Source: Candidatus Aenigmatarchaeota archaeon
GTDB taxonomy: Archaea; Aenigmatarchaeota; Aenigmatarchaeia; JACPZZ01
Assembly: GCA_016180965.1 (NCBI GenBank)
Contig: JACPAF010000003.1
Coordinates: 1-57,683, forward strand
DNA: 57,683 nucleotides
Direction of reading: 5' to 3'
The position numbers and the translations under genes are program-made. Numbering within the stretch: the stretch's first letter is position 1; the number at the start of each line of letters is the position of its first letter. The notes beneath the pieces are model-generated. The model worked only from the letters and a program-made list of their open reading frames with translations, had not been told where the DNA came from and did not search any database. Of this stretch, positions 1-48,327 are shown one piece after another.

Positions 1-99
1 GCCAATGGGTATCTTCTGCTAGAAACAGACACTGTTAGTATGTGTCTGTTTCGGTCTACAACCTAAGCCCATCCCGTTAGACCGCTTCGGTACCCCCGC
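1..99 (-). tRNA. tRNA-Leu(TAG), partial, with anticodon-loop intron
   Basis: The 5' part of a tRNA-Leu runs off the left edge. The acceptor strand GCGGGGG begins at 99. The anticodon stem is ATGGG/CCCAT and the loop starts CTTAGG, giving anticodon TAG. A 51-nt intron (11-61) follows position 37. By eye the junction fits a bulge-helix-bulge: bulges GGU and AUA, with CUU pairing AAG and one A-G mismatch. The variable arm, T-arm and 3' end lie outside the window. A TATA-like ACTATATC near 126-133 suits transcription towards lower coordinates. Confidence is reduced only by the truncation. Confidence 0.85.
11..61 (-). other. tRNA-Leu intron carrying a family 1 palindrome
   Basis: The intron begins GTTGTAGACCG after one T and contains an 11-bp perfect stem, GAAACAGACAC with GTGTCTGTTTC (22-32 and 42-52), then CTAGC. 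Both flanks resemble the free-standing family 1 element at 40190-40230 (GTTGTAAACTG ... CTAGCTACAAC), so this intron and the dispersed palindromes appear to share ancestry. The exact splice points are inferred from the paired tRNA arms. Confidence 0.7.
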
Positions 100-170
100 G
101 TGTTTTAAATATCTTAGTTTTAAGCCAGATATAGTAAACCCACGCAAGGTTAAAAATTGAGGTTGCGGAA

Positions 171-971
171 TTGAATTCACGAAAATATCGGTTGGATAGG
201 CCGGACATTTCCGTGCTTCCTCTGCGTTACGCATATTTCGGTGATTTGTCCTATTTTGCAGCCAGTGACGTGAATATCGGCCGCGCTTTGGCTATGATGT
301 ATTCTGCGAAAACGGTTGAAGTTACCGGCAAAACCATTAAAACGGAGCGAGTAATAATTTTATCTGCCAACGTAGATGGAAGCCCAAAAAGGCTTTATGT
401 GAAAGAAGATGCAGAACCAGCTCCGATGGAGGCGCATGCTATTGCGCTTCATAATCTGGTTGCGAAACCTATAGTTTATGCGGCCTATAACAGGGGTCAT
501 TTATTGATCGTGGAGGAAATTCCCGGACAGCGGTTTGATTACAAATTTTTGGAAGACGATGAAATTGCAAGAAATTATGGAAGGGCGGCAGCTGTCGCAG
601 AATTTATCGGATTAAGCGACAGGCATAAAGCAAACCTGATCCTTGATGGAAACGAAGTGCGGCATGTAGATTTTGAACTTCCTTTCGAAGGGAATTTCTT
701 CCAGAACCCGTTGATGAATGTGGACGGATCCCTTTCGTACAGGGATAAACGAAAAATATATTCCAGACGGAAAGCCATAGTGGATGGCCACGATGAAGCG
801 GTTCAAAATATACGGTATTTTTGCGTCCAACGGAGAAATGATATTAAACGCATTATAACGTCCTTGAGGTCGTTGAACACAGATAATCAGGAATGGACGG
901 ACGCCAGGATTAAACGATTCCTGCAACAGCATGAGTATTTGGGATTGGAAGCGGAACTTTACGACGATTAA
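171..971 (+). CDS. Protein-kinase-fold protein, unassigned family
   Basis: This 266-residue protein is of unrecognised family but has an apparent kinase-like core. K78 lies in a strand (LYVKED), with a possible partner E87. A hinge-like LLIVEEIPG spans 111-119. A catalytic-loop-like D150-R-H-x-x-N155 is followed by D167-F-E. The D-R-H-x-x-N spacing recalls PI3K-like and other atypical kinases rather than Hanks kinases. The start is TTG, chosen because a GAGGT ribosome site lies just upstream and no nearby ATG covers the fold. No membrane segment is visible. Substrate unknown. It is divergent from the tRNA-Leu gene, and the next gene downstream is also an orphan. Confidence 0.6.
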   Translation: MNSRKYRLDRPDISVLPLRYAYFGDLSYFAASDVNIGRALAMMYSAKTVEVTGKTIKTERVIILSANVDGSPKRLYVKEDAEPAPMEAHAIALHNLVAKPIVYAAYNRGHLLIVEEIPGQRFDYKFLEDDEIARNYGRAAAVAEFIGLSDRHKANLILDGNEVRHVDFELPFEGNFFQNPLMNVDGSLSYRDKRKIYSRRKAIVDGHDEAVQNIRYFCVQRRNDIKRIITSLRSLNTDNQEWTDARIKRFLQQHEYLGLEAELYDD

Positions 972-1007
972 CCGGAGCTTAAATTTGTGCCCTATTAACT
1001 ATTTTCT

Positions 1008-1424
1008 ATGAGCTACAAACCTTTCTGGAGGGATTTCGCCGACGGTTTTTTGTCTGCAGCGGACAGGATTTCGGTAATGAGGTACGAGCACAGCAGATTT
1101 GACCCGCGCAAATGGGAGGATTACAGGAAAAGCACTTCGCCGGGAATAAGGGCGATACAATCCTATTCTTTAAGGGATGCGCATAATCTGGGAGACAACG
1201 GGTTTGTTCCTGACAGCAAATCGGCGAGAAGCGCGCGAAGGGAGCTTGCTTATTACGGTTTCGGAAGCGGGGGTTTTGTAGCAGGCCAACATATAGGAAA
1301 CGTTGCAATGGTATCCGGCATTGTCCCATTAGGTTTTTATTTATTTTCCGTGTGGGAGAGGACAAACAATGGAAGAATAGTGAGGCATTTTGAAAAACTC
1401 AAACAGGAGATAGATTCGGTTTAG
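1008..1424 (+). CDS. Hypothetical protein with one membrane segment
   Basis: This 138-residue protein of no recognised family has a basic, aromatic N-terminal half (many R, Y and S), a glycine-rich stretch near 83-92 and one hydrophobic segment at about 97-113, followed by a charged tail. It probably sits in the membrane with most of the chain on one side. It follows the kinase-fold gene by 36 bases and may be co-transcribed. Its stop codon overlaps the end of the convergent cobalamin adenosyltransferase gene by four bases. Confidence 0.55.
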   Translation: MSYKPFWRDFADGFLSAADRISVMRYEHSRFDPRKWEDYRKSTSPGIRAIQSYSLRDAHNLGDNGFVPDSKSARSARRELAYYGFGSGGFVAGQHIGNVAMVSGIVPLGFYLFSVWERTNNGRIVRHFEKLKQEIDSV

Positions 1425-1945
1425 TCCATTTCCATTTCATTTACGCCGGCTTTTTTGTTTGCTAGCCTTGCCAAATTAAACAGTAATTTCGACAATTTGT
1501 TCATGTAATCCATTATAATCGGATTAACGTCTTCCTTCGCGGAAAGTTCGATAATCTTTCTTTCAGCGCGCCTGCAAATTGTGCGACACACGTGCAACAT
1601 TGAAGCCAATTCCGAACCGCCCTGCAAAATGAACTTATGTAATGGGGGAAGCGATGAAAATATTTCCTCGTTGATCTTGTTTATCCAGTCTAACCGGTCT
1701 TGGGTTAAAATTTTAACAACCGGGTTTTTTCTTTGTTCGGCTGTCGAGGCCAAATCAGACCCTATGATATACATGTCCTTTTGCAATGCGAGCAGGGTTT
1801 TTTTAATTTCCTCGTCTGTTGATTTTGAATACGCCAAACCCAAAAAAGAATCCAGTTCATCGATGTTGCCGTAAGCTTCTATGCGCACGTTATCTTTACG
1901 CACAATTTTCCCCCCGAAAAGCAAGGTTTCGACCGGTTTGTTCAT
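1421..1945 (-). CDS. pduO: Cob(I)alamin adenosyltransferase, PduO type
   Basis: It transfers the adenosyl group of ATP to cob(I)alamin to make adenosylcobalamin. Family signatures are YGNIDELDSFLG (residues 25-36), a substrate region LPPLHKFILQGG (99-110) and the R121-x4-R126-A-E-R motif, then YMNKLSKLLFNLAR. At 174 residues it is slightly short. The usual glycine-rich ATP-binding N-terminus (T-x-x-G-D-x-G-x-T) is missing, and an in-frame TAG just upstream rules out a longer start. It is followed on the same strand, after one opposite gene, by a DUF4430 protein with a transcobalamin-like domain. No B12-dependent enzyme was seen here. Confidence 0.88.
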   Translation of the reverse strand: MNKPVETLLFGGKIVRKDNVRIEAYGNIDELDSFLGLAYSKSTDEEIKKTLLALQKDMYIIGSDLASTAEQRKNPVVKILTQDRLDWINKINEEIFSSLPPLHKFILQGGSELASMLHVCRTICRRAERKIIELSAKEDVNPIIMDYMNKLSKLLFNLARLANKKAGVNEMEMD

Positions 1946-2000
1946 AAAATCGCCCTAAATACAGTTAATTTTAAATACACTTCCAACATATTTATGCCTC

Positions 2001-2438
2001 ATGGCGAACGCGTTTGTTAGGTATATGGAGAAGTGTATTTTGGCGCTTGAAACAGAACTTCCGACCTTGCCTTCATTCGATCGATATGAAATTGACGAAG
2101 CCGTTCGATTAGGCCTCGTAGGCAGGTCGCCCGCTTCCCTGTATAAACCGGAGGGCGATGTTTTCTGGTCACGGGATTTTCACAGCGAATTGGGGCTCGC
2201 GCTTCTTGCAGAAAGATGTGTCAGGGACAATTGCAGCAACGGCAAATCGGAGTTCGTGGGAACTGTAAATAATTTAATCAGGGTTGATGGTGTTCCATTG
2301 GATCGGACGATTGCAACCGCAGCTTTGGTTTATGGGCGTGACTTGGGATTGATGGAAGAACATGACATCGGCGGAGTTTCAGTTTTCGTTTTGAACGATC
2401 AATACAGGGGAATAGTAAGGCCGATGGCTAAAAATTAA
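2001..2438 (+). CDS. Hypothetical protein
   Basis: This 145-residue soluble protein belongs to no family I recognise. It looks mostly helical with a mixed C-terminus, has two cysteines (in ERCVRDNC) and no membrane segment or signal peptide. It is divergent from the cobalamin adenosyltransferase gene; the 55-base AT-rich gap holds a TATA-like ACATATTTAT about 14 bases before the start, implying a leaderless or very short leader mRNA. It ends 12 bases before the convergent DUF4430 gene. Confidence 0.5.
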   Translation: MANAFVRYMEKCILALETELPTLPSFDRYEIDEAVRLGLVGRSPASLYKPEGDVFWSRDFHSELGLALLAERCVRDNCSNGKSEFVGTVNNLIRVDGVPLDRTIATAALVYGRDLGLMEEHDIGGVSVFVLNDQYRGIVRPMAKN

Positions 2439-2450
2439 TTTTTTGATAAA

Positions 2451-3215
2451 TCAGCATTTTATTTCTTCTTTTTTGAGCAGTCTCCATTCTATCAGGTCGC
2501 CGCTTTGCAATTGGAATTTGTCCACCGAAACGTCAGGTATTTTTCCATTTACTATGTACTCCCAGAAATAACCGTCCTGGCCGTTTTTGATCCCGTTTAT
2601 GGATTCTATGTACATGCCACCGTCTCCCCATGCCTCGTATCTGCGGGCTTCCATTCCCAGGTTGTGGCTGGCGGCCGTTTCTAACAGGGAATGATAAACA
2701 TCGGTTGGTCTCGAGTTTTCTATGATGATGCTTTGGAACGCCCTTTCCGAAGGATAACTGATGTTGTTCTGGTAGGCTATCTGCATTACTTTTTGCTCGG
2801 GTTCTGGTATTCTGTAAGCTCGCGGTTCGATAATTTCATGTTCGGTAGTTTCTTCAGGTAATTTATTTTTAACGGATTTTACGGATTTTTTCGCAACTTC
2901 TTTTATTTTTTCCTGGTCTTCGTTATTTGCTGTAGGGTATTCTTCCTCCTCATCTTCGTCGTCTTTGTAAACGTCTTCGTCATCGTCGCCGTAGAAAAAA
3001 CTTTTTTGCGATTTTTCATCGTATTTTCTGCTTGTAGTTTTTTTGGCTTTGCCTATTTTTCTTTCATTATCCTCGTTCAAGCTTTCCAGTAGGGTTTGCA
3101 AAGACCGCAAAGAAATAGAAATTTCCTCTTCGGTTATGTTGAAAATTTGGTCCGGAACAAATGTTTTAGCGGTTTGTGCGTGGTTTTCAACCAACATGAC
3201 AGCAGAATTAACCAT
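2451..3215 (-). CDS. DUF4430 (transcobalamin-like C-terminal domain) protein
   Basis: This 254-residue protein is built in three parts: a helical N-terminus (1-65), a very acidic low-complexity linker (about 72-120, runs of D and E) and a compact C-terminal domain (about 190-254). That domain reads GMYIESINGIKNG, then GYFWEYIVNGK, then LQSGDLIEWRL, which is typical of DUF4430, the fold shared with the C-terminal domain of transcobalamin and intrinsic factor. Family members are usually exported, yet no signal peptide is visible here. The nearby cobalamin adenosyltransferase gene makes a corrinoid role worth considering, but many DUF4430 proteins have no known ligand. Confidence 0.65.
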   Translation of the reverse strand: MVNSAVMLVENHAQTAKTFVPDQIFNITEEEISISLRSLQTLLESLNEDNERKIGKAKKTTSRKYDEKSQKSFFYGDDDEDVYKDDEDEEEEYPTANNEDQEKIKEVAKKSVKSVKNKLPEETTEHEIIEPRAYRIPEPEQKVMQIAYQNNISYPSERAFQSIIIENSRPTDVYHSLLETAASHNLGMEARRYEAWGDGGMYIESINGIKNGQDGYFWEYIVNGKIPDVSVDKFQLQSGDLIEWRLLKKEEIKC

Positions 3216-3266
3216 TCAATAAGGATGTAAAGAAGGATATAAAAACCCTGCGCACTACAGCTGGTG

Positions 3267-4394
3267 TCATTCGTTTTCGCGGGTCGTGGCCTTTCTCACG
3301 CGGTTAACAGCTATTTCCATGGCTGCGTCCCGCGGTTTTACCTTGTTTTTTTTGGATTCTTCCAGTACGAGCTTTGTGTTTTTCCTTATTTTTTTTTCAA
3401 CCATCTGGAACATGCGCGCCGGGTTTTCGCCCTTGTATTCTGCGTACGAGGATATTACACCGCCTGCGTTGGCGACGAAGTCTGGAACGACTAAAATCCC
3501 GTTCTTGTGCATTTTTTCTTCTATTTCCGGTGTTGTCGGTATGTTTGCGGCTTCGACTACTATTTTGCACTTTAATTTATCTACGTTGCCCTTGTTTATC
3601 ACATCCGGAACCGCAGAAGGTATGATTATGTCCACGTTGAGTTCAAACAATTTTTCATTAGTAATTATCGACGCCGGTTTGTAATTAGTAACCGATCCCG
3701 TGTCTTTTTTTATTTTGGACAATTTTTCCATATCCAACCCGTCTTTGTTGTAGGCGCAGCCTTTGCTGTCGCTTACTGATATTATTTTTGCGCCGAAAGC
3801 GTCCAGATATTCTGCAGCAAACGCCCCGACGTTTCCGTAGCCTTCAATCGCTATTGTTGTTCGTTTTATGTTCATTTTTAGGTGTTCAATCGCAACTAAA
3901 GTGGAATGCGCGACCCCGAAACCCGTCGAACCGTATTCATGGGGTATTCCGCATTTAACACCGGGCGCTACGCATAATGTTGATGGTTTGCCTGTGGCGG
4001 AACGGAAAGAGCCGTTTGCGCGCACGAATTCTTCCATTTCCTTTTCCGATGTGTTTATGTCCGGCGCAGCTATGTATTTGCTGGGGCAGATCGGTTTTAT
4101 TGCAGTTGAGAAAGCGTTAATAATTGCCATTTTTTGTTCCAATGAGATTTTTTTCGGATCCGCTACAATCCCGGACTTACCGCCGCCGAACGGCAGATCT
4201 GCCAATGAGCATTTCCATGTCATCGTGCGCGCAAGCTTCGCAACTTCGTCGATAGTAACGCTCGGTGTCATCCTTATGCCGCCTTTTGCCGGTCCGAGGG
4301 ATGTATTGTCAATAACGGTGAAGCCGTGCATGCCAGTTTTTTGGTCGAACACCTCAAGAATTTTTTCCGGCCCGAATTCGTCGAAATTAACCAT
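3267..4394 (-). CDS. gdhA: Glutamate (or leucine) dehydrogenase
   Basis: It catalyses reversible oxidative deamination of glutamate or a related amino acid with NAD(P). Visible are the substrate strand GPAKGGIRM (about 34-42), the lysine region LPFGGGKSGI, APDINTSEKEM, and the dinucleotide-binding GYGNVGAFAAEYL, with conserved VVEAANIPTTPE and FVANAGGV near the C-terminus. At 375 residues it lacks the first 30-40 residues of typical archaeal GDH, in this resembling leucine/phenylalanine dehydrogenases, so the substrate is uncertain. The upstream gene on the same strand is geranylgeranyl reductase, about 30 bases away. Confidence 0.85.
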   Translation of the reverse strand: MVNFDEFGPEKILEVFDQKTGMHGFTVIDNTSLGPAKGGIRMTPSVTIDEVAKLARTMTWKCSLADLPFGGGKSGIVADPKKISLEQKMAIINAFSTAIKPICPSKYIAAPDINTSEKEMEEFVRANGSFRSATGKPSTLCVAPGVKCGIPHEYGSTGFGVAHSTLVAIEHLKMNIKRTTIAIEGYGNVGAFAAEYLDAFGAKIISVSDSKGCAYNKDGLDMEKLSKIKKDTGSVTNYKPASIITNEKLFELNVDIIIPSAVPDVINKGNVDKLKCKIVVEAANIPTTPEIEEKMHKNGILVVPDFVANAGGVISSYAEYKGENPARMFQMVEKKIRKNTKLVLEESKKNKVKPRDAAMEIAVNRVRKATTRENE

Positions 4395-4423
4395 AACTAT
4401 CAGAGATAATAAATTTTTTTGCG

Positions 4424-5668
4424 TTATATAGTTTTTTTGAAATCTTTTGCGAGGCCTGTTAAATTGGCCAAATACCTGAAAGCTATTTTTGCCAATAAAT
4501 CTAGGGGTAATTTTACTTTTTCGGTTTTAGCTGTTATGAAAGCGGAGAATGCGGTGAGATATTCTGTTTTTTTGCCGATTTCCATCATGAAACTTTTGAA
4601 AAGCATCCTGTTTTCCAATATATTCATTACTGTCTGATTGGTTCGGAATTCGTCATTCATTGCTGTTTCCACAGATTTTTCATACTCTTTTGTAATACTA
4701 TAAGAAAAATCATTTTTTGCGATCGCATTTGAAATGGTGTTGGCGGCAAGTTTTCCACTAACCAACGCGTTTCCTATCCCTTCTCCGGTGAAAGGAATTA
4801 TCAGGGATGCTGCGTCGCCTATCAGGATGAATCCGTCGCCTGCGCGTTTCCTTTTCTGTGCGCCCGTCGGCAGGTTCCAGCCTTTTATTTCCGAAACTTG
4901 CCTTGAGTCTTTAAATTTATCCGCTACATAAGAGCTTTTGACGATCTCGTCTAGAAGGGATTTCAGGTTTATTTTTCTTTTTGGAATCTCCTCTGCAACC
5001 AGGCCCAAACCGACGTTGCACACGTTATTTCCTACGGGAAATATCCAAAAATAACCGGGCAGAACTTCGTCCATGAAATGTATCTCCAGTGAATCGTGCC
5101 GTATGTCCACGTTTTCGTAATAAGCCCTGATTGAAACGTAACATTTGTCTGTTTCGAAACTATTCAAACCGAGCTTGCGCGCGACTATTGAATTTGCCCC
5201 GTCCGCTCCTACAACAATGTTTGATGTGAATTGTTTTTCTTTTCCATCATTGCCAGTGCCTTTTATCCCCGTTACTTTGTTGCCGTCCATTAAGATATCG
5301 GTAACTGTGAAATTTTCAATCACATCAACTTTTTCTCTGGCCAGTTGGAATAATTCGTTATCGAACAAATAGCGTTTGCATGTGTAACCCGGATCTTTAT
5401 CGTTGCCCATGTAAGATATTTTCACACCGCCAGATGCGGATGTGATGAAACCCATAAGCCTTTCGTGGGGCAATTTATCTATTTTGTCTTTGACTCCGAG
5501 TTCTTCGATCATATTGACGGATTTTCCGGTTACTCCATCTCCACAGGCTTTGTCGCGAGGGAAAAAAGCTTTGTCCACTAAGAGAGTTTTTATCCCCTTT
5601 TTTCCCAGAAAAATAGAACATGAAGAACCCGCGGGCCCGCCGCCCACCACAATGACGTCATAATCCAT
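4424..5668 (-). CDS. Geranylgeranyl reductase family FAD enzyme
   Basis: This 414-residue flavoprotein is of the archaeal digeranylgeranylglycerophospholipid reductase type, which saturates the isoprenoid chains of ether lipids. The Rossmann motif VVGGGPAGS is at residues 7-15. The family signature RDKACGDG follows, then an FAD-contact GDAASLIIPFTGEGIGNAL near 285-305. Length is normal. It links functionally to the mevalonate operon two kilobases downstream, which supplies the isoprenoid precursors. Related proteins act on prenyl quinones, so the exact substrate is inferred. Confidence 0.85.
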   Translation of the reverse strand: MDYDVIVVGGGPAGSSCSIFLGKKGIKTLLVDKAFFPRDKACGDGVTGKSVNMIEELGVKDKIDKLPHERLMGFITSASGGVKISYMGNDKDPGYTCKRYLFDNELFQLAREKVDVIENFTVTDILMDGNKVTGIKGTGNDGKEKQFTSNIVVGADGANSIVARKLGLNSFETDKCYVSIRAYYENVDIRHDSLEIHFMDEVLPGYFWIFPVGNNVCNVGLGLVAEEIPKRKINLKSLLDEIVKSSYVADKFKDSRQVSEIKGWNLPTGAQKRKRAGDGFILIGDAASLIIPFTGEGIGNALVSGKLAANTISNAIAKNDFSYSITKEYEKSVETAMNDEFRTNQTVMNILENRMLFKSFMMEIGKKTEYLTAFSAFITAKTEKVKLPLDLLAKIAFRYLANLTGLAKDFKKTI

Positions 5669-5714
5669 GCTGTTACCCCGTTATTTTTTCGGAATTAATT
5701 GGAAACATATGCTC

Positions 5715-5743
5715 AGTTGCTAACTCGATATGCTTCAGTTTAC
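5715..5743. repeat. Degenerate family 1 palindrome beside tRNA-Glu
   Basis: Only one clear arm remains: ATATGCTTCAGTTTAC at the right side, starting four bases beyond the 3' end of the tRNA-Glu gene. The arm matches the element at 16251-16282 (stem GAAGCATATCG). A possible second arm, CATATG, lies at its left. It appears to be a decayed copy in the tRNA 3' trailer. Confidence 0.5.
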
Positions 5744-5747
5744 TCGA

Positions 5748-5870
5748 TGCTCCTGCTGGGATTTGAACCCAGGTCTTCGGCGTGAAAGGCCAATGTCCTA
5801 TCGGTTGGTGAAAATGCGCGTGTTTTTGGTACGCGCCTGTCGACCGCTGACCGGACTGGACGACAGGAGC
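5748..5870 (-). tRNA. tRNA-Glu(TTC) with a D-loop intron
   Basis: Acceptor strands GCTCCTG/CAGGAGC pair over seven bases, with A73 and no encoded CCA. The anticodon loop is CTTTCAC (TTC) on stem TTGGC/GCCGA, and the T-arm is CTGGG-TTCAAAT-CCCAG. The D-stem GTCC/GGAC is split by about 48 extra bases (5800-5847). Removing them leaves a textbook D-loop, AGUCCGGUCAA. The 5' half also encodes the last two dozen codons of the LAGLIDADG gene upstream, in the same direction. Confidence 0.9.
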
Positions 5871-6496: not shown

Positions 6497-6508
6497 GGAG
6501 GCGATCAA

Positions 6509-7247: not shown

Positions 7248-7296
7248 GTTGTAGCTAGAAACATGTGCTATTTGGCATGCACATGTTTCATTCTAC
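7248..7296. repeat. Family 1 palindrome, 3' side of tRNA-Val
   Basis: GTTGTAGCTAGAAACATGTGC and GCACATGTTTC form an 11-bp stem (7258-7268 with 7279-7289) with the standard left flank GTTGTAGCTA. The right flank ATTCTAC is altered but still closes GTTGTAG partly. It begins on the base after the stop codon of the membrane hydrolase and ends four bases from the tRNA-Val 3' end, so it lies in the tRNA trailer. Confidence 0.8.
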
Positions 7297-7300
7297 TATT

Positions 7301-7371
7301 TGGGCCCGAAGAGAATTGAACTCTTTTCTCCGCCGTGTCGAGGCGGCGTACTGCCGTTATACTACGAGCCC
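7301..7371 (-). tRNA. tRNA-Val(GAC), with C at position 33
   Basis: A complete 71-nt cloverleaf. The acceptor is GGGCTCG/CGGGCCC with A73, the D-stem GTAT/GTAC, the anticodon stem CCGCC/GGCGG and the T-arm AAGAG-TTCAATT-CTCTT. The loop TCGACAC gives GAC at 34-36 but puts C, not the near-universal U, at position 33. The usual Val loop is CTGACAC, so positions 32-33 look swapped. An alternative 8-nt loop register is possible, which leaves identity slightly uncertain. No intron. Palindromic elements flank both ends. Confidence 0.75.
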
Positions 7372-7374
7372 GTT

Positions 7375-7450
7375 GCAAACTGAAGCGGATTCCACGGCAA
7401 ACTGACGCATACATGGTATGCGTCTAGCTGCAGAATCTGCTTCTAGCTGC
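7375..7450. repeat. Nested pair of family 1 palindromes, 5' side of tRNA-Val
   Basis: The outer element has flanks GCAAACTG and CTAGCTGC and stem GAAGCGGATTC/GAATCTGCTTC (7382-7392 with 7433-7443, one G-U pair). In its loop sits a complete second element, 7397-7431, with identical flanks GCAAACTG and CTAGCTGC and stem ACGCATAC/GTATGCGT. The outer copy starts three bases from the tRNA-Val 5' end. This is direct evidence of one element inserted in another. Confidence 0.85.
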
Positions 7451-7501
7451 CCCGCTAGAACAGAAATACAACTTGCGACTTTAAATCATTTCCTTTAACT
7501 A

Positions 7502-7533
7502 AAAGCATACCGTATATCGTATCGGTATGCTTT
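7502..7533. repeat. Family 1 stem-loop with degenerate flanks
   Basis: AAAGCATACCG and CGGTATGCTTT form an 11-bp stem around a 10-base loop, TATATCGTAT. Stem and loop closely match copies at 16126-16157 and 47998-48029, but the flanks have changed (ACTA at the left, GGAGTT at the right). It lies about 45 bases upstream of the TATA box of the mevalonate operon. Confidence 0.75.
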
Positions 7534-7579
7534 GGAGTTAATAAGCCGGTTGGACAAAAAGTGTCTAGTCATACGTCAG

Positions 7580-7588
7580 TTATATATT
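7580..7588 (+). promoter_or_regulatory. TATA box of the mevalonate operon
   Basis: TTATATATT lies 23-31 bases before the ATG at 7611. That is the normal archaeal distance for a transcript beginning at or within a few bases of the start codon, and no ribosome-binding site is visible, so the mRNA is probably leaderless. Confidence 0.6.
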
Positions 7589-15525: not shown

Positions 15526-15636
15526 AGCTCGGAGGGAGAGTCGAACTCCCCTTTGACGCTGTCCGCAATTTTTGATCGACCTTTTTTCTAAAAAGGTCGT
15601 CTGCAGGCGCCCACATAGCCGATCTGTCATCCGAGC
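15526..15636 (-). tRNA. tRNA-Cys(GCA) with anticodon-loop intron
   Basis: The acceptor is GCTCGGA/TCCGAGC with U73, the Cys identity base. The anticodon stem is GGCGC/GCGTC and the loop CTGCAG plus A38, anticodon GCA. The T-arm is GGGAG-TTCGACT-CTCCC. A 40-nt intron (15561-15600) follows position 37. The D-stem is short with a G-G mismatch. Exon CUGC pairs with intron GCGG, with bulges AGA and ACA, a regular bulge-helix-bulge. Confidence 0.9.
15561..15600 (-). other. tRNA-Cys intron formed by a family 3 hairpin
   Basis: On the tRNA strand the intron is a CGACCTTTTT/AAAAAGGTCG stem followed by ATCAAAAATT and then the BHB strand GCGG. The same stem type followed by AxCAAAA recurs at 40630, 41698, 42851 and 47916, next to protein genes. 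The intron therefore seems to be a member of a dispersed hairpin family different from family 1. Confidence 0.75.
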
Positions 15637-15644
15637 TTTTGCAA

Positions 15645-15677
15645 CCGAAATAGGCGCTTGATATGCGTCCATTTCGG
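15645..15677. repeat. Family 1-related palindrome, 5' side of tRNA-Cys
   Basis: CCGAAATAGGCGC pairs with GCGTCCATTTCGG with one mismatch and one G-U pair. The flank GACCGAAA (minus strand) matches the intron of tRNA-Leu rather than the commoner AACTGAA flank. It ends eight bases from the tRNA-Cys 5' end, in the tRNA leader. Confidence 0.65.
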
Positions 15678-15773
15678 TCTAACACGACCACTATCTTTTC
15701 CTTAGTAGTCAGTACGATAATAAAAACATCAGTTCACACTTTTTTTGACCGATTTTTTTGTAAAAATGTTATT

Positions 15774-15846
15774 TGCGGCGGCCGGGATTTGAACCCGGGT
15801 TTTGAACTTGGCAAGCTCATGTCTTACCAGGCTGGACCACCGCCGC
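15774..15846 (-). tRNA. tRNA-Gly(GCC)
   Basis: An uninterrupted 73-nt cloverleaf. The acceptor is GCGGCGG/CCGCCGC with A73, the D-arm GGTCC-AGCCTGGTAA-GAC, the anticodon stem TGAGC/GTTCA with loop TTGCCAA (GCC), and the T-arm CCGGG-TTCAAAT-CCCGG. A family 1 palindrome abuts its 5' end with one base between. No CCA is encoded. Confidence 0.95.
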
Positions 15847-15847: not shown

Positions 15848-15896
15848 GTTGTAGCTAGAAACAGACGCTATTGTGTATGCGTCTGTTTCAGTTTAC
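15848..15896. repeat. Family 1 palindrome, 5' side of tRNA-Gly
   Basis: A full-length copy: left flank GTTGTAGCTA, stem GAAACAGACGC/GCGTCTGTTTC (15858-15868 with 15879-15889) and right flank AGTTTAC. GT...AC at the ends, AGCT with AGTT inside them and the main stem make a three-part hairpin with single-base bulges. It sits directly against the tRNA-Gly 5' end. Confidence 0.88.
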
Positions 15897-15998
15897 GATG
15901 TGTCTATTTCAGTTTACTACTATGCATCCGTTTCAGCTCACTCTTCCTATTAATAGAAAACCTATAGTTTTCTATTTATGAAAACTGACGTTTTCATA
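15897..15998. repeat. Family 1 fragments and two tandem family 2 hairpins
   Basis: 15901-15940 holds two single arms, each ending in the family 1 tail (TTTCAGTTTA, TTTCAGCTCA). They are followed by two tight hairpins in tandem: ATAGAAAAC/GTTTTCTAT (15953-15975) and TATGAAAAC/GTTTTCATA (15977-15998). The tandem pair resembles those at 21542-21589 and 22245-22289. No gene or open frame is seen in this stretch between tRNA-Gly and tRNA-Ser. Confidence 0.65.
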
Positions 15999-16020
15999 AT
16001 TTACATTGTTATTATTTTAA

Positions 16021-16060
16021 GAAGCATACCGTATGCTTTTTTGGTATGCTTCAGTTTGTA
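16021..16060. repeat. Family 1 palindrome, 3' side of tRNA-Ser(GCT)
   Basis: GAAGCATACC and GGTATGCTTC form a 10-bp stem around GTATGCTTTTTT, with right flank AGTTTGTA. The loop contains a partial copy of the right arm (GTATGCTT), perhaps a slippage product. It ends four bases from the tRNA-Ser 3' end. Confidence 0.8.
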
Positions 16061-16063
16061 TAG

Positions 16064-16241
16064 CGTCGGGGGCGGGATTTGAACCCGCGCTGGCTACGTC
16101 GACTGAAACAGACGCTTTACAGCCAGAAACATACCGATGCAGTATACGGTATGTTTCAGTTTCCGATGCGTCTGTTTCTAACTCCTTTAACGCCAACAGG
16201 TTTAGCAAACCTGCGCCCTAACCTGGCTAGGCGACCCCGAC
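16064..16241 (-). tRNA. tRNA-Ser(GCT) with a variable-arm intron
   Basis: The acceptor is GTCGGGG/CCCCGAC with G73, as expected for Ser. The anticodon stem is CAGGT/ACCTG with loop TTGCTAA (GCT), and the T-arm GCGGG-TTCAAAT-CCCGC. The long variable arm is split by 92 bases (16095-16186). Splicing at AA|A and UA|G leaves UUGGC-GUUAA-GCCAG, a perfect class II variable arm. The gene is 178 nt in total. Confidence 0.92.
16095..16186 (-). other. Variable-arm intron of tRNA-Ser(GCT) with nested palindromes
   Basis: A regular bulge-helix-bulge can be drawn: UUGG/CCAG outside, CGUU/GACG as the 4-bp centre, 3-nt bulges AAA and UAG. Inside is an outer stem GAAACAGACGC/GCGTCTGTTTC, and in its loop a second hairpin GAAACATACCG/CGGTATGTTTC (16126-16136 with 16147-16157) with family 1 flanks AAACTG and TGGCTG in the opposite orientation. 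The intron is thus two family 1 elements, one inside the other. Confidence 0.82.
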
Positions 16242-16248
16242 TTACTAC

Positions 16249-16315
16249 TAGAAGCATATCGTATACTGTATCGATATGCTTCAGTTTATGACGGTATGCT
16301 TCAGTTTCCGATGCA
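16249..16315. repeat. Family 1 palindrome plus a partial copy, 5' side of tRNA-Ser(GCT)
   Basis: The complete copy has stem GAAGCATATCG/CGATATGCTTC (16251-16261 with 16272-16282), loop TATACTGTAT and right flank AGTTTATG. A partial copy follows, CGGTATGCTTCAGTTTCC at 16292-16309. The same right-arm fragment is found at 25020 and, with one change, at 16147. Confidence 0.82.
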
Positions 16316-21541: not shown

Positions 21542-21631
21542 ACGAAAATCAATAGATTTTCGTGCACAGGAAATCCTTGATTTCCTGTGAGGTCTTTGGA
21601 AACCCCAAAATATCTTTGGTTTTTCCAGACC
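21542..21631. repeat. Three tandem hairpins between DUF655 and ksgA
   Basis: The first is ACGAAAATC/GATTTTCGT with loop AATA (21542-21563), the second CACAGGAAATC/GATTTCCTGTG with loop CTT (21565-21589), the third a longer stem closed by GGTCT/AGACC with GGAAA and TTTCC inside (21591-21631). The first two match, with compensatory changes, the pair at 22245-22289. They lie in the leader of ksgA and behind DUF655. Confidence 0.75.
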
Positions 21632-22244: not shown

Positions 22245-22289
22245 ACGAAAAGCATTGCTTTTCGTGTATAGGAAACTTTGGTTTCCTAT
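22245..22289. repeat. Two tandem family 2 hairpins upstream of DUF655
   Basis: ACGAAAAGC/GCTTTTCGT with loop ATT is followed at once by ATAGGAAAC/GTTTCCTAT with loop TTTG. The order and arm pattern repeat those between DUF655 and ksgA, with paired substitutions (AT to GC) that keep the stems. They lie in the DUF655 leader. Confidence 0.75.
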
Positions 22290-22355
22290 ATCATAGACTT
22301 CTTATAAAACCGAGATTTATAAAGTTAAGACATAAATTAAAACTGTTGATTTTTG

Positions 22356-24977: not shown

Positions 24978-25058
24978 TTCAGGTTTTCTCAATTAGAAAA
25001 CCACAGGTTTTCTAATTACGGTATGCTTCAGTTTCTGGTGCGTCTGCTTCTAACTGCA
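24978..25058. repeat. Family 2 hairpin and family 1 remnants
   Basis: A perfect TTAGAAAACC/GGTTTTCTAA hairpin (24993-25015) follows a partial copy of its right arm. Then comes CGGTATGCTTCAGTTTCTGG and GCGTCTGCTTCTAACTG (25020-25056), nearly identical to the right half of the tRNA-Ser(GCT) intron at 16147-16184. No tRNA is present, so this looks like a stranded half of a nested pair. Confidence 0.65.
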
Positions 25059-40137: not shown

Positions 40138-40166
40138 CTAACATACACTCGGTGTATGTCCAGTTA
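40138..40166. repeat. Short family 1 palindrome
   Basis: ACATACAC/GTGTATGT (40141-40148 with 40152-40159) around TCG, with flanks CTA at the left and CCAGTTA at the right, matches the family 1 outline but with a shorter stem. No tRNA lies nearby. Confidence 0.65.
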
Positions 40167-40189: not shown

Positions 40190-40230
40190 GTTGTAAACTG
40201 ACTCATACAAAGTATGAGTCTAGCTACAAC
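40190..40230. repeat. Free-standing family 1 palindrome upstream of rpl7ae
   Basis: The clearest intact copy: GTTGTA and TACAAC at the ends, AACTG and CTAGC inside them, and a stem ACTCATAC/GTATGAGT with a 3-base loop. On the opposite strand GUUGU/ACAAC, AGCU/AGUU and the main stem stack with single-base bulges on alternate sides, recalling a bulge-helix-bulge. It lies in the presumed 5' leader of rpl7ae, just before its ribosome site. Confidence 0.88.
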
Positions 40231-40615: not shown

Positions 40616-40629
40616 GCCTTTCTTCCAAA

Positions 40630-40905: not shown

Positions 40906-40906
40906 A

Positions 40907-41733: not shown

Positions 41734-41781
41734 CAAAAACACCGGGCAAGCCTTTAAAAATAATGGACGCGTGATATTTCT

Positions 41782-42018: not shown

Positions 42019-42064
42019 ACGACAAAGCTTAAGTTAACACAACTGTTATAATAGGAAGATAAAA

Positions 42065-43260: not shown

Positions 43261-43263
43261 ATA

Positions 43264-43653: not shown

Positions 43654-45206
43654 TTCTTGAGCCTTTATTCAAATTTTTACCTTCTGTAAAAAAGCCGACG
43701 GAAAAACAGTCGTTGAGCAAAAAATTAAAGTGGACAGGCATAATGCTGCTGCTTTATTTTGCAATGTCGCACGTGACGGTTTACGGCGTTTCTGAAACTG
43801 CTTTGCAGCGTTTCGCTTTCCTCGAGCTGATATTGGGATCGAGATTCGGGTCATTGATGACACTCGGTATCGGGCCCATAGTAACTGCGTCAATAATTTT
43901 GCAGCTTATGGTCGGTTCGAAGATAATAAACTGGGACCTTTCCAAGCGCGACCAAAAATTAAAATTTGAATCCACGCAAAAACTTTTGGCAATAGTTATC
44001 ACAGTCATCGAAGCGGTTGCATACGTTTCTTTCGGAGCGGTTCCGGCGAAAGCGGGAGCTTCTGCAATGCTTGTCATACTTTTGATATTGCAGCTTTCGC
44101 TGGGCGGTTGGTTAGTCATATTGATGGATGAAATCGTTACGAAATGGGGTTTCGGTTCCGGAATAAGCTTGTTCATCGCAGCAGGCGTTTCGAGCCAGAT
44201 AATCATACACATGATAAACCCGCTGGCGCCGTGCGTCGACAACCCGCTGAAATTGTGCATACCCGACGAGACGAATAAGCCTGCCGGACTTCTGCCAAAC
44301 GCATTGTTAAGTTTGTTGTCGGGAAATGTTGCGGATGCATCGGCGAACCTTATACCTATATTTTCCACGTTGATTGTTTTCTTAATCGTAATCTATGCGC
44401 AAGCGATTCGCGTTGAAATACCATTAGCTTTCGGCTATTTCCGCGGTTTCGGAAGAAGCTGGCCTTTGAAATTCATTTACACCAGCAACATTCCGGTGAT
44501 ATTAACAGCCGCGCTGATCGCGAACGTCCAGGTCATGGGCGCGTTAATGGCAGCTAAGGGTTTACCGATACTCGGGACGTTTGATGCCAACAACTCACCA
44601 ACGGGCGGGCTTGTATTTTTGCTTTCCGTGCCCAGAGAGCTTCCAATACAGACTGTGATGCTGACTGTGGGGATTTTCGCGGTTTTGGGCGCGCTGTTTT
44701 CCGTTTACTACCTTAAAAAATATCTTTTGGAAACCACGTTGCTTTCGGCTTTGTTGGGTGTAATAGCCTGGCATTTCGGGTTCCAGGCGCTCGGCTTTAC
44801 TGCGGCGACGGCGTTAACCGCGCAAAGCGTGCTAAGGTTATTCACTTACACTTTGTTCCTAACAGCAGGCTCGGTGTTATTTTCAATATTCTGGGTTAAC
44901 ACGGCTAATATGAATTCGGAGAGCGTGGCAAAACAGATACAATCCATAGGCATGCAAATTCCTGGATTCCGCCGCGACCCGCGCATCATAGAATCGGTTC
45001 TGGACAAATACATACCAAACCTTGCTGTGTTGGGAGGAGTGTTTATAGGAATTTTGGCTGCGTTCGCAGACTCGGTTAACGCATTAGGAACAGGCACAGG
45101 TATCCTATTAACTGTAATGATAATATACAGCATGTACGAACAGCTCGGCGCGCAACAGATGGAGGATATGCACCCGGCGATAAGGAAGATGTTCGGTAAG
45201 GAATAG
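43650..45206 (+). CDS. secY: Preprotein translocase subunit SecY
   Basis: The protein-conducting channel, 518 residues with ten transmembrane helices. The N-terminal ...SKKLKWTGIMLLLYFAMS helix, the plug-region ILGSRFGSLMTLGIGP and cytoplasmic loop LAFGYFRGFGRSWPLKFIY are recognisable. It follows uL15 with ATGA coupling and precedes adkA and DUF106, a conserved archaeal arrangement. Confidence 0.97.
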   Translation: MILEPLFKFLPSVKKPTEKQSLSKKLKWTGIMLLLYFAMSHVTVYGVSETALQRFAFLELILGSRFGSLMTLGIGPIVTASIILQLMVGSKIINWDLSKRDQKLKFESTQKLLAIVITVIEAVAYVSFGAVPAKAGASAMLVILLILQLSLGGWLVILMDEIVTKWGFGSGISLFIAAGVSSQIIIHMINPLAPCVDNPLKLCIPDETNKPAGLLPNALLSLLSGNVADASANLIPIFSTLIVFLIVIYAQAIRVEIPLAFGYFRGFGRSWPLKFIYTSNIPVILTAALIANVQVMGALMAAKGLPILGTFDANNSPTGGLVFLLSVPRELPIQTVMLTVGIFAVLGALFSVYYLKKYLLETTLLSALLGVIAWHFGFQALGFTAATALTAQSVLRLFTYTLFLTAGSVLFSIFWVNTANMNSESVAKQIQSIGMQIPGFRRDPRIIESVLDKYIPNLAVLGGVFIGILAAFADSVNALGTGTGILLTVMIIYSMYEQLGAQQMEDMHPAIRKMFGKE

Positions 45207-45213
45207 TATTTAA

Positions 45214-45242
45214 CCCTTTTCTTTTGAAAAAGAAAAGCTTTA
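45214..45242 (+). other. Hairpin between secY and adkA
   Basis: CTTTTCTTTT pairs with AAAAGAAAAG (45216-45225 with 45228-45237) just before the adkA ATG. It resembles family 3 in its T/A stem but lacks the following ATCAAAA. It could mask the adkA start, which has no separate ribosome site. Confidence 0.45.
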
Positions 45243-45851
45243 ATGGAAAAGAAAATATGTGATCTTATGCCATTGGTAATTCTTGCGGGCGCTCCGGGCG
45301 TTGGAAAAACAACAGTCCAGAATGTGGCTTTGGAACAATTGCAGACTGTTAAACCGGTTAAAGTCGCGACATTCGGGGATTACATGTTTGAGATAGCTAG
45401 TCGTGATCGACTGGTTACGAACAGGGACGAAATGCGCACTAAAATACCGCGCGAAAAATACAAAGACCTGCAGAGAAAAGCGGCGGAACAGATAGCGCGC
45501 GATGCGAAAGACCGAAATATTATTGTTAACACGCATTTGTCCATGGTTACGTCGTTTGGTTTGATTCCAGGATTGCCGTTGGAGATTTTGAAACTCCTTG
45601 ACCCGAAGATCATAATTATCGTTGAAGCGGATCCTTCGGAAATATCATTGAGGCAAAAGGAGGATAAGGATCGCGAAAGATCGGATTTCGGTGACGCCAG
45701 CAAGCTTGAAGCTTTCCAGAATTATTCCCGTTCATGCGCGGCGGCCTATTCGGTTGTGCAGAACATACCCGTGAAAATCATAATCAACAAGCAGGGAAAA
45801 ATACGCGACTCTTCCAACGAATTGATAGAGGTTTTGAAAAATGTTTTTTGA
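45243..45851 (+). CDS. adkA: Adenylate kinase, archaeal AdkA type
   Basis: It converts AMP and ATP to two ADP. This 202-residue protein has Walker A GAPGVGKT (16-23), the AMP-site RDEMRTKIPREKYKDLQRKAAEQIA and the late RQKEDKDRERSDFGDA lid. Archaeal AdkA lacks the bacterial zinc lid, as here. An internal ATG at 45267 would start nearer to the P-loop and may be the true start. It overlaps DUF106 by 11 bases. Confidence 0.92.
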   Translation: MEKKICDLMPLVILAGAPGVGKTTVQNVALEQLQTVKPVKVATFGDYMFEIASRDRLVTNRDEMRTKIPREKYKDLQRKAAEQIARDAKDRNIIVNTHLSMVTSFGLIPGLPLEILKLLDPKIIIIVEADPSEISLRQKEDKDRERSDFGDASKLEAFQNYSRSCAAAYSVVQNIPVKIIINKQGKIRDSSNELIEVLKNVF

Positions 45852-46308
45852 GAGCCAGATGAACATCATTTTCGCCCCATTGATAGCCGGCGGCATGTTT
45901 TTCGCACTTACCGCCATTTCTGTTTTGATGTCTTCAATTACGACGGTTTTTTACAGGATTTTTGTGGACCAGTCTTCGATGAAAGAGGTCAGGAAAAACA
46001 TGGAAACTTACCGCGAAGCCGCAAACAAGTACCAAAAAGAAAATGACATTGCGAAAATGAACGAAAATGTCTCCAAAATGATGGAATTAAACAAGAAATA
46101 TTTTTCATTGTCTACGAAGCCGTTGTTATTTTCTTTAATAATTTTTGCCGTGGTTTTTCCTTGGATGGGTAAAGAATTTATCGGTGTGACAGTTAATCTC
46201 CCTATTTCTGTGCCGTTTATCGGAAATAACGTCGGCTGGTTCGGCTGGTATTTCCTGCTTGCTGTGCCGTCGAGCGTGATAATGCGCAAGCTTCTGGACG
46301 TGCAATAA
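45841..46308 (+). CDS. DUF106/EMC3-like membrane insertase
   Basis: This 155-residue archaeal YidC/Oxa1-superfamily protein has three hydrophobic helices and, between the first and second, a long charged cytoplasmic coiled coil (SSMKEVRKNMETYREAANKYQKEND ... VSKMMELNKKYF). That layout is diagnostic. It inserts membrane proteins with or beside SecY. Position after SecY-AdkA is the classical archaeal one. Confidence 0.92.
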   Translation: MFFESQMNIIFAPLIAGGMFFALTAISVLMSSITTVFYRIFVDQSSMKEVRKNMETYREAANKYQKENDIAKMNENVSKMMELNKKYFSLSTKPLLFSLIIFAVVFPWMGKEFIGVTVNLPISVPFIGNNVGWFGWYFLLAVPSSVIMRKLLDVQ

Positions 46309-46348
46309 TAAAAATTGGTTTTAAAAACCTCCCCGCTTAATAAATTTT

Positions 46349-46957
46349 GTGATAAAGGCTGTAATTTTTGATCTTGGCGGGGTTTGTTTTTTTGATGCGA
46401 CTCAGCGGGTTATTGATATGTTGAAATCGGACTACGGAGTGGATGAGGTTAAAGCCTATTCTGTATTATCCCCTAAATCAGAGATGGGAAAACTTTACCG
46501 CAGGGGAATGATAACTGCGAAAGAGTTTTGGACAGCCGCTTTGAAAGAGCTGAGCGTTAAAGAAAATTATGACAAATTCCTAAAATTGTGGGTTGATTCG
46601 CCGGAAATGGAAGGTACGGTTGAGATAGTGCGTAAACTTAAACAAAACGGATTGAAATTGTTTTTCCTTTCCGACAATATCAAGGAGCGGGCGGACATAC
46701 TGGATAAAAAATTTGGAGTGATGAAATATTTTGACGGCGGAATATTCTCGAATTTAGTCGGTAAAATAAAACCAGACGGTGAGGATGTTTTTTTGATGGC
46801 GCTGGATAAGACTGGAGAAGTTGCGGCTGATGTCGTTTTTGTGGACGATAAAGAGAAAAATGTCGACACTGCCAGAGGCGTCGGGATGAAGGTTATACAT
46901 TTTAAGAATCCGGCCCAACTAGAAAAAGAGTTGAAATTGTTGGGAGTCAAATTTTAG
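46349..46957 (+). CDS. HAD-superfamily hydrolase
   Basis: This 202-residue protein has HAD motif I FDLGGV with nucleophile D8, motif II FFLSDN, and motif III/IV KIKPDGEDVF and FVDDKEKNV. The cap lies after motif I. The DLGG form of motif I places it near the epoxide-hydrolase N-terminal/haloacid type rather than the DxDGT kinases. The substrate is unknown. GTG start, 40 bases after DUF106; nine bases before cbf5. Confidence 0.88.
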   Translation: MIKAVIFDLGGVCFFDATQRVIDMLKSDYGVDEVKAYSVLSPKSEMGKLYRRGMITAKEFWTAALKELSVKENYDKFLKLWVDSPEMEGTVEIVRKLKQNGLKLFFLSDNIKERADILDKKFGVMKYFDGGIFSNLVGKIKPDGEDVFLMALDKTGEVAADVVFVDDKEKNVDTARGVGMKVIHFKNPAQLEKELKLLGVKF

Positions 46958-46965
46958 CTGATTTT

Positions 46966-47916
46966 ATGATAACGAAAGAAGACTCAGTCACGAATGATAA
47001 ATACGGCACCCGCGCCGAAAAAAGAACCATCGAACAATTGATGGAGTACGGCGTAATTAATTTGAATAAACCGCAAGGGCCGACGAGCCACCAAACTGTT
47101 GCGTGGATAAGGGATATGTTGAAATTAAAAAAAGTCTCTCACACAGGCACTATAGACCCGATGGTGAGCGGTGTTTTAGTTGTAATGTTAAATGAGTCGG
47201 TTAAAGCTACGGAATTGATAGGCCACGAAGAGAAGGAATATGCCGCTTTGATGCATGTGCACCAGCAGCTTCCGAAGGAAGTTGTGGAAAAATCCATAAA
47301 AAAATTCATTGGCAAGATAAAACAATTACCGCCGTTGAAATCCGCTGTCGCGCGCCGCGAGCGCATACGCGAAATAATGGATATACAGGTATTGGAAATA
47401 AACGGCAAGGACGTATTGTTCAAGGTCAAATGCGAAGCGGGCACATACATACGGCGCTTAGTCGACGATATCGGCAAGGATTTGAAATGCGGCGCGCACA
47501 TGGCCGAGCTGCGAAGAACGCGCGCGGGCATTTTCCGTGAAAACTATTCTTTTACGATGCACGAATTGAAGGATGCGTGGGAGATTTACAAGGAAAACGG
47601 AGATGACACAAGATTAAGGAAAATAATAAAGCCGTTGGAAGATATTCTATATGCGTTAAAGATTAAAAAAGTAATTGTTAAAGATTCTGCTGTAAATAAG
47701 ATTTGCAACGGCGCTGCTGTCGGGGTTAACGGAATCGCGAGCTTGGATGAAGGAATATCGAAGGGCGATAGAATTGTTATTTTATCGCTGAAAGGCGAGG
47801 TTGTTGCGATTGCGACGTCGCTAATGAGTTCCAATGAAATGGCCAAAGCCGATCGTGGCTTGGCAGCGAAAACAGACCGCGTTTTGATGAAATTGAATAC
47901 GTATCCGTATATGTAA
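46966..47916 (+). CDS. cbf5: tRNA/rRNA pseudouridine synthase Cbf5
   Basis: The catalytic subunit of H/ACA RNPs, 316 residues. The catalytic aspartate D64 is in SHTGTIDPMVSGVL, which replaces the usual HSGTLDPKVTG. GVINLNKPQGPTSHQ precedes it and RRLVDDIGKDLKCGAHMAELRRTRAG follows. A PUA domain (CNGAAVGVNGIASLDEGISKGDRI) closes the chain. Nop10 and L7Ae partners are encoded in the window. A family 3 hairpin begins at the stop codon. Confidence 0.95.
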   Translation: MITKEDSVTNDKYGTRAEKRTIEQLMEYGVINLNKPQGPTSHQTVAWIRDMLKLKKVSHTGTIDPMVSGVLVVMLNESVKATELIGHEEKEYAALMHVHQQLPKEVVEKSIKKFIGKIKQLPPLKSAVARRERIREIMDIQVLEINGKDVLFKVKCEAGTYIRRLVDDIGKDLKCGAHMAELRRTRAGIFRENYSFTMHELKDAWEIYKENGDDTRLRKIIKPLEDILYALKIKKVIVKDSAVNKICNGAAVGVNGIASLDEGISKGDRIVILSLKGEVVAIATSLMSSNEMAKADRGLAAKTDRVLMKLNTYPYM

Positions 47917-47950
47917 AACCTTTTTGATAAAAAGGTTTATCAAAAAAAAT
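47916..47950 (+). repeat. Family 3 hairpin after cbf5
   Basis: AAACCTTTTT/AAAAAGGTTT (47916-47925 with 47929-47938) is followed by ATCAAAAAAAAT. Read on the minus strand the same A-run is a T-run just after the tRNA-Ser gene and may end its transcript. The stem overlaps the cbf5 stop codon. Confidence 0.7.
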
Positions 47951-47987
47951 CAGGCGCCGAGGAAGGGATTTGAACCCTTACGGAGCA

Positions 47988-48035
47988 AACGTCGACTGAA
48001 GCATACCGTATACTGCATCGGTATGCTTCTAGCTG
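47988..48035 (-). other. Variable-arm intron of tRNA-Ser(UCN), a family 1 palindrome
   Basis: On the tRNA strand AGCTAGAAGCATACCG and CGGTATGCTTCAGTC form the family 1 hairpin with loop ATGCAGTATA. The junction resembles that of tRNA-Ser(GCT): CGU/ACG, bulges AAC and UUU. Removal leaves GGGGC-GUAAAU-GCUCC. The flank CAGTCGACGT is shared with the other Ser intron. Confidence 0.75.
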
Positions 48036-48057
48036 TTTACGCCCCACCGGATTTCTA

Positions 48058-48167
48058 AGGCTCCAAACTTAAAGGATTCCTCATTTCGCCGCCATGATCA
48101 GAATCAAGCCTTGATGTCATAGCCTCTCAAGTATCGCCTATGCGCCAATCATCTCTGGCATCAGCAT
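48058..48167 (-). other. Anticodon-loop intron of tRNA-Ser(UCN), about 110 nt
   Basis: Its ends cannot be fixed to the base. A 7-bp helix forms between exon AUGCGCC and intron GGCGCAU, which may compete with the tRNA fold before splicing. Two CTGA boxes and one ATGAGGA occur but not in a convincing box C/D order. No family 1 stem is present. Confidence 0.45.
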
Positions 48168-48194
48168 ATCCGGCGCATTTAACCTGGTTCTGCC

Positions 48195-48275
48195 ATCGAT
48201 CAGACCGAAGCACATTTCCGGCTGAAGCATGTCCTATGGCACGCTTCGGTTTACGTTGTGCTTCCGATGGCCCGC
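48195..48275 (-). other. Intron between acceptor stem and D-arm of tRNA-Ser(UCN)
   Basis: Cutting GU|G and AU|G joins GCCGAGGU to GGCAGAACC, the normal U8-G9-D-arm order. CGA/UCG can form the central helix. Inside is ACCGAAGC paired with GCTTCGGT and a fragment ATGCTTCAGC of the family 1 arm. A second copy of GCCGAGG stands three bases upstream of the tRNA 5' end. Confidence 0.6.
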
Positions 48276-48327
48276 ACCTCGGCTTTCCTCGGCATATTTT
48301 AATTGCGACGGAAGGTTAATAAACTTC

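Follow-up and report, generated by a model that had tools for sequence, protein, structure and literature searches.

How archaeal tRNA genes acquire introns is an old open question. It is raised in a concrete form by the window, a stretch of 57,683 nucleotides (nt) of Candidatus Aenigmatarchaeota DNA, in which short hairpins with common flanks stand at the ends of tRNA genes and inside them. A reading made earlier from the letters of the window (the sequence-only reading) took these hairpins for mobile or formerly mobile, intron-like units that use tRNA genes as safe sites. Based on the results below, we consider it fairly probable that they are non-autonomous mobile palindromes, similar to repetitive extragenic palindromic (REP) sequences and miniature inverted-repeat transposable elements (MITEs), which enter the ends and loops of structured RNAs and are spliced out when they lie in the D-loop of a tRNA. 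The family is a concrete candidate source of tRNA introns, being both a free genomic repeat and a predicted spliceable intron, with empty sites in sister genomes.

A hairpin family of a single genus

The window is contig C5 of G000, a metagenome-assembled genome (MAG) of 731,509 bases in 7 contigs, 81% complete. It was compared with its relatives G001, G002, G003 and G004, all groundwater MAGs of Candidatus Aenigmatarchaeota; these five genomes form the genus sample (G0, G3 and G4 are shorthand for G000, G003 and G004). G000 and its best relative, G004, were covered whole, with about 28 kb and 28 kb of N-masked letters, respectively, while G001, G002 and G003 were covered in parts. DNA identity is about 72–76% for every pair, and there are no close strains among them.

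When all hairpins of at least 8 base pairs (bp) were enumerated, the dominant long hairpin of G000 was of the GAARCATACCG class. A covariance model (R1) was built from 32 oriented copies and run with cmsearch, and a few short copies were added by a stem-and-flank search. Together they gave about 76 distinct copies in G000 and 89 in G004. Two forms occur. In the long type the stem-loop has 32 nt and the whole copy about 49 nt; in the short type these lengths are 21 nt and about 39 nt. Distinct subtypes are present among the more than 75 dispersed copies of each genome. The six copies listed in the sequence-only reading, at 7248, 7397, 15848, 16251, 40190 and 47998, are all present. The model detected them with E-values of 2e-5 or better, except for the copy at 7397, which was recovered within a composite at 7373-7452 (E = 1e-4). 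Of the two free copies named there, that at 40190 was found again, and that at 40138 is too degenerate for model detection.

The stems were said to change in pairs, which proved correct: 10 pairs show double changes, and the covariation score is 0.41 against 0.18 ± 0.015 for shuffled and at most 0.094 for slid controls. The flanks likewise retain a CU/AG helix, in which a single A is bulged. The further claim, that the closing GTA/TAC pair changes as one, is weak and correct only in part, because these outer pairs are unpaired in nearly half of the copies (14–17 of 32). The element as a whole is a near-complete palindrome with inverted ends, as is characteristic of the terminal inverted repeats of MITEs.

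A 38-letter pattern of the family has 24 matches in G000 and 7–29 in each of the four sister genomes, and none in 35 genomes of the same class outside the genus; the reversed pattern, used as a control, had no match in any genome searched. By these counts the family is genus-specific. No description of it was found in the open-access literature, subscription papers lying outside the search. A virus or plasmid origin was considered and rejected: three viral-contig matches and two from Desulfobacterales cover the stem only, without the flanks, and fit chance palindromes.

Placement at tRNA genes and elsewhere

Enrichment at tRNA genes had been set beforehand as one of two tests of the mobile-unit proposal, and it holds genome-wide. 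A tRNA gene contains, or lies no more than 60 nt from, 31 of the 76 copies of G000 and 34 of the 89 of G004, against about 10% and 9% of random noncoding positions. Within the window, the 5' sites named earlier were found at tRNA-Val(GAC), -Gly(GCC) and -Ser(GCT), and as a degenerate copy at tRNA-Cys(GCA); the 3' sites at tRNA-Glu, -Val and -Ser(GCT) were found as well. Copies inside tRNA genes are present in tRNA-Leu and tRNA-Ser(GCT). The intron-bearing tRNA-Ser(UCN) was not confirmed: no such tRNA was found in the window, and we read the gene with several introns at 47956-48283 as Leu(UAA).

The spacing is sharp. Among the 48 copies within 150 nt upstream of a tRNA, the base of the stem is 9–12 nt from tRNA nucleotide 1 in 27, and none lies at 13–30 nt; on the 3' side the distance is 9–13 nt in 11 of 15 copies. 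Close 5' copies stand at 29 of 66 tRNA genes, 19 of them opposed to the gene and 10 in the same orientation. Such spacing may reflect target choice or selection for a harmless place, and the lack of copies at 13–30 nt argues for some target choice. The phrase "safe sites" is one wording only of this pattern, in which preferred insertion cannot be told apart from tolerance under selection. Outside the genus, none of 29 tRNA loci (six genomes from other families of the class) had an upstream palindrome longer than 8 bp.

Where a tRNA gene lacks a 5' copy, TATA-like hexamers are most frequent at -40 to -31; where a 5' copy is present, the peak is weaker and lies upstream of that copy. Because of this upstream position, the 5' copies are probably in transcribed leaders. 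A portable promoter was rejected, since the hexamers lie upstream of the copies and not within them, although element-free tRNAs show a stronger peak. Roughly one half of the copies are found between protein genes, without clear preference for gene orientation, and such copies occasionally provide the stop codon of the adjoining gene. A transcription terminator or convergent-gene marker was likewise rejected, as no gene arrangement is clearly preferred by the non-tRNA copies.

It could be asked whether the copies instead have a function in the processing or regulation of tRNA leaders and trailers, being maintained by selection and moved by ordinary recombination. The very tight spacing at both tRNA ends, the share of tRNAs with a 5' copy and the stems maintained by compensation would agree with this. 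However, both orientations are found at one and the same place, flipped between species at Thr(UGU), many orthologous tRNAs have no copy, and the nesting in loops and the copies distant from tRNAs are left unexplained. A substitute for RNase P would be unneeded, because the RNase P RNA gene is present in G000, G003 and G004, and that role was rejected. Overall, we regard processing elements as an unlikely explanation.

In G000 (C2:40875-41043), four tandem copies stand upstream of a tRNA-Arg gene, with about 11–15 nt separating successive stems.

Turnover, nesting and RNase P RNA

The second of the two tests, that copies should not be fixed in all relatives, was passed as well. Comparison of tRNA loci and syntenic gaps showed that the copies are not fixed in relatives and that both occupied and empty sites exist, as is expected of a mobile element. 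Among syntenic gaps with a copy in G000, 15 are also occupied in G004 and 13 are not; among those with a copy in G004, 15 are also occupied in G000 and 15 are not. Some of the empty gaps are tiny (7, 20 and 22 nt), though decayed remnants persist at a few "empty" sites. At tRNA loci, Ile(GAU) has 5' and 3' copies and an intact D-loop in G000, and a D-loop insertion with neither flank copy in G004. The 5' copies of the Lys and Gln tRNAs of G000 are absent in G004, an Arg tRNA 5' copy is absent in G001, and that of Thr(UGU) has opposite orientations in G000 and G004. The D-loop copy of Thr(GGU) was found in G001 only, and that of Leu in G004 and G001, not in G000.

Copies also lie within one another: 18 of 157 are enclosed by another family stem that is 9 bp or longer, whereas shifted controls gave 0.3%. 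The inner copy, mostly of the GAAGCAT subtype, replaces the loop of the outer one and is near-flush with its stem, leaving about 8–10 nt on either side of the inner stem, which resembles the spacing at tRNA ends. Such nesting usually marks successive insertion.

Genes for RNase P RNA carry copies too, in the P3 and P12 regions as read from the model alignment. This was seen in G000, G003 and G004, and the copies differ in subtype or orientation across the three species. They would lengthen a helix, so that no splicing would be needed, and the family would represent a case of a mobile element enlarging RNase P RNA.

Runs of half-elements (an arm and its flank, with the partner arm absent) were observed beside full copies at 15890-15950 of the window and at G004 C6:109250-109340. 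They look as though nested copies had lost one side.

Gene conversion among tRNA paralogues, combined with template switching at hairpins, could produce part of this picture with no dedicated mobile element, given that half-elements and nested arms are common and that three tRNAs with a common D-arm use the same D-loop site. The copies at protein genes and in RNase P RNA, however, have no flanking homology to tRNAs, and more than 75 dispersed copies per genome with distinct subtypes also speak against it. We consider gene conversion a very improbable source of the family.

D-loop copies as predicted introns

A strict 3-4-3 bulge-helix-bulge (BHB) is formed by the D-loop copies of Thr(CGU) in G004, Thr(GGU) in G001 and Leu in G004. 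The layout runs from the D-stem through a 4-bp central helix with two 3-nt bulges to ACU/AGU and the element stem, and the central helix pairs the D-loop exon with the four bases after the AGU of the element. Splicing in silico gives arms with 0 differences from the uninterrupted ortholog for Thr(GGU), and 1 each for Thr(CGU) and Leu. When the flanks of the three copies were shuffled, the splice property was kept in 0.35%, 0.65% and 0% of trials. The splicing endonuclease gene (PF01974) is present in all five genus genomes, and we infer that the D-loop copies are removed as introns by EndA.

The scan for strict BHBs in variable-arm and anticodon-loop copies gave good candidates for Ser in G000 and Leu in G001, and none for Ser in G004 or for Pro(GGG). 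Insertions lacking the strict motif may have relaxed motifs or may have changed later. The description "intron-like units" suits the copies inside tRNA D-loops and does not cover the many leader, trailer and intergenic ones.

Proposed pathway of insertion

We suggest the following pathway for the spread of the family. An enzyme acting in trans would recognize the hairpin and insert new copies at helix ends, either at the outer foot or in the inner loop, probably on folded single-stranded DNA. Where copies stand in leaders, in trailers, between genes or in RNase P hairpins, they would serve as harmless helix extensions or spacers. A sense copy in a tRNA D-loop would extend the stem by ACU-[A]-stem-AGU, and the next four bases would pair with the tRNA. 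The resulting BHB should then be cut out by the splicing endonuclease, giving a new tRNA intron. If insertion does follow hairpin shape, the target rule is an unusual one.

The sequences themselves show dispersed copies in either orientation, sites that are empty or occupied, copies nested in others, stems set flush with the ends of helices and the three D-loop BHBs. Regarding the earlier term "mobile units", the empty and occupied sites stand, and it is from the sequences that we infer transposition of the family. As a more tentative proposal, which we consider possible rather than probable, the family could be an archaeal introner, that is, a small transposable palindrome carrying half a BHB, making tRNA introns and choosing its targets by structure (helix ends) and not by sequence. 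It would then be the archaeal counterpart of eukaryotic introners.

Several observations weigh against mobile palindromes that become introns. Ile in G004 restores the G000 sequence only with a 4-nt 3' bulge (read by hand), and the scan for strict BHBs found none in several of the insertions in variable arms and anticodon loops. Only 14 of 142 non-tRNA copies would be splice-ready at the Thr D-loop site, in the sense orientation only (0 in the other). Target-site duplications are unreadable, as the genomes have diverged by about 27% and the loop is lost on nesting; a possible GGYA repeat was seen at D-loop sites, compared without close strains. No mobilizing enzyme was found in these incomplete genomes, where only the Y1 and reverse transcriptase families were searched, and within the same search no related autonomous element, as expected for a MITE, was recognized. 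Y1 transposase genes occur in G003 and G004 only, inside elements with unrelated ends. IS200/IS605-type ends were rejected as the source of the family, since these Y1 elements carry different palindromes.

A rival explanation is spread at the RNA level: excised introns would be ligated or reverse-spliced into transcripts such as tRNAs and RNase P RNA, at their loops and ends, and then returned to DNA by reverse transcriptase and recombination. The insertion points match RNA loops and mature tRNA ends, the 3' flank of the element pairs with the target exon, and one reverse transcriptase gene was found in G002 and one in G004. On the other hand, the incomplete MAGs G000, G001 and G003 gave no reverse transcriptase match, both orientations occur beside tRNAs, and the copies between protein genes, about half of the family, have no gene-orientation bias. 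RNA-level spread therefore seems to us a rather unlikely route.

Features of the window

Table 1. Copies of the hairpin family and adjacent tRNA genes in the window. Bit scores are those of the covariance model R1 unless RF00005 is named.
Feature	Position	Strand	Support
Element copy, long type, intergenic	13..61	+	cmsearch, 52.3 bits
Element copy flush with the 3' end of tRNA-Glu, at a distance of 4 nt	5693..5745	+	26.9 bits
tRNA-Glu gene with D-loop intron	5749..5870	-	T-arm/acceptor search, locus reading; RF00005 28.1 bits
Element copy, 3' flush with tRNA-Val	7249..7298	+	59.5 bits
tRNA-Val(GAC)	7302..7371	-	ARAGORN, Rfam
Two nested copies, 5' flush with tRNA-Val (arms of outer copy 7382-7392 and 7433-7443; its loop holds a short copy at about 7395-7433)	7373..7452	-	30.7 bits, sequence
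Element copy upstream of tRNA-Val	7493..7544	+	39.9 bits
tRNA-Cys(GCA), intron of different hairpin type	15527..15636	-	Locus reading
Degenerate copy flush with the 5' end of tRNA-Cys (stem at 15647-15675, with 10 nt between it and nucleotide 1)	15637..15684	-	Sequence reading; below model threshold
tRNA-Gly(GCC)	15775..15846	-	ARAGORN, Rfam
Element copy, 5' flush with tRNA-Gly; top score in genome	15849..15898	+	67.5 bits
Element copy, 3' flush with tRNA-Ser(GCT)	16009..16061	+	26.8 bits
tRNA-Ser(GCT), element-bearing insertion in variable arm	16065..16241	-	Locus reading
Outer element of tRNA-Ser insertion (arms 16105-16115 and 16168-16178)	16105..16178	-	Inverted repeat I1, 12-bp outer stem
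Inner element, nested in loop of tRNA-Ser outer element	16117..16166	+	57.6 bits, nesting
Element copy, 5' flush with tRNA-Ser(GCT)	16242..16291	+	59.1 bits
Short-type element between protein genes	40191..40229	-	33.4 bits
tRNA-Leu(UAA) gene with several insertions	47956..48283	-	T-arm/acceptor search, locus reading
Element copy in tRNA-Leu variable arm	47989..48038	-	59.6 bits
Nested element-like hairpins in tRNA-Leu D-loop	outer 48207-48264, inner 48224-48247	-	Sequence reading; below model threshold

Other hairpin families

A second dispersed family consists of chained mini-hairpins, with examples of the forms ACGAAAATC-n-GATTTTCGTG / CATAGGAAATC-n-GATTTCCTATG and TTGAGAAAATC-n-GATTTTCTCAA / TAGTTTGC-n-GCAAACTATT. 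Its sites are 21542-21589, 22245-22290 and 24991-25017 in the window and C6:1080-1439, C2:228132-228260 and C3:87624-87672 in the rest of G000. Mini-hairpins were also found in loops of the main family (G000 C7:28992-29091; G004 C7:5029-5127) and in a tRNA-Arg intron (G004 C7:4830-5005). At about 95322-95369 of G004 C5 (locus L141/L201), a copy of about 48 nt lies in frame within a Y1 transposase gene; the related Y1 gene of G003 (L200) has no such copy.

Hairpins of a third type, with roughly the form ARRCYTTTT-n-AAAARGYYYRAYCAAAA, are found repeatedly in the introns and trailers of tRNAs. In the window the type was seen in the tRNA-Cys intron of Table 1 and at 47921-47946, and many introns of tRNA genes in G000 and G004 contain it. 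Other families of the class have similar sequences, and the type was seen 3' of tRNAs in G005, G009 and G012.

Comparison with known systems

Large-scale tRNA intron transposition has been described in Thermoproteales, with the mechanism left open (Fujishima 2010 via PMC4090602). As described in PMC4090602, those introns resemble the present ones in that similar introns stand at corresponding positions of different tRNAs, were gained late, and are tolerable thanks to BHB splicing. Our case is set apart by its host, a DPANN genus. Here the intron is a dispersed repeat too, and its occurrence outside introns, next to tRNAs, within RNase P RNA, in protein-gene gaps and in the family itself, may be a further difference.

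GTAG-tagged REP palindromes go with RAYT transposases, archaeal cases not being reported in PMC3733652. Like them, the family comprises short, dispersed, imperfect palindromes in many copies, with covarying stems and GTAG or GTAA near one end (PMC3733652). Unlike them, the tag is GTAR and lies 3 nt from the foot of the stem, there is no associated RAYT, and the copies show exact placement at tRNAs and in hairpin loops and form introns (PMC3733652). In the family itself, GTAG and GTAA/GCAA are about equally common, and CTA stands between tag and stem. No repeat-flanked RAYT/Y1 gene was found in these incomplete genomes, as the Y1 genes of G003 and G004 are flanked by other palindromes.

In Caldiarchaeum, integration of a mobile element was proposed as the source of one tRNA intron (PMC3293823). 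The two cases share the proposal of a mobile element as an archaeal tRNA intron source; that of Caldiarchaeum was an integrase-type event of 1.9 kb, in which attP and attB recombined, and ours involves repeats of about 50 bp at many sites (PMC3293823).

Introners are transposon-derived spliceosomal introns (PMC9860276). The likeness consists in a repeat with inverted ends that makes introns on insertion, its splice signals being partly recruited from the target (PMC9860276). Unlike introners, the family would rely on BHB splicing of tRNA by a protein enzyme and not on the spliceosome and mRNA, its host is prokaryotic, and it is far shorter and almost entirely palindromic (PMC9860276). Taking these likenesses and differences together, what we call it, on the sequence evidence, is tRNA intron transposition by a REP/MITE-like palindrome.

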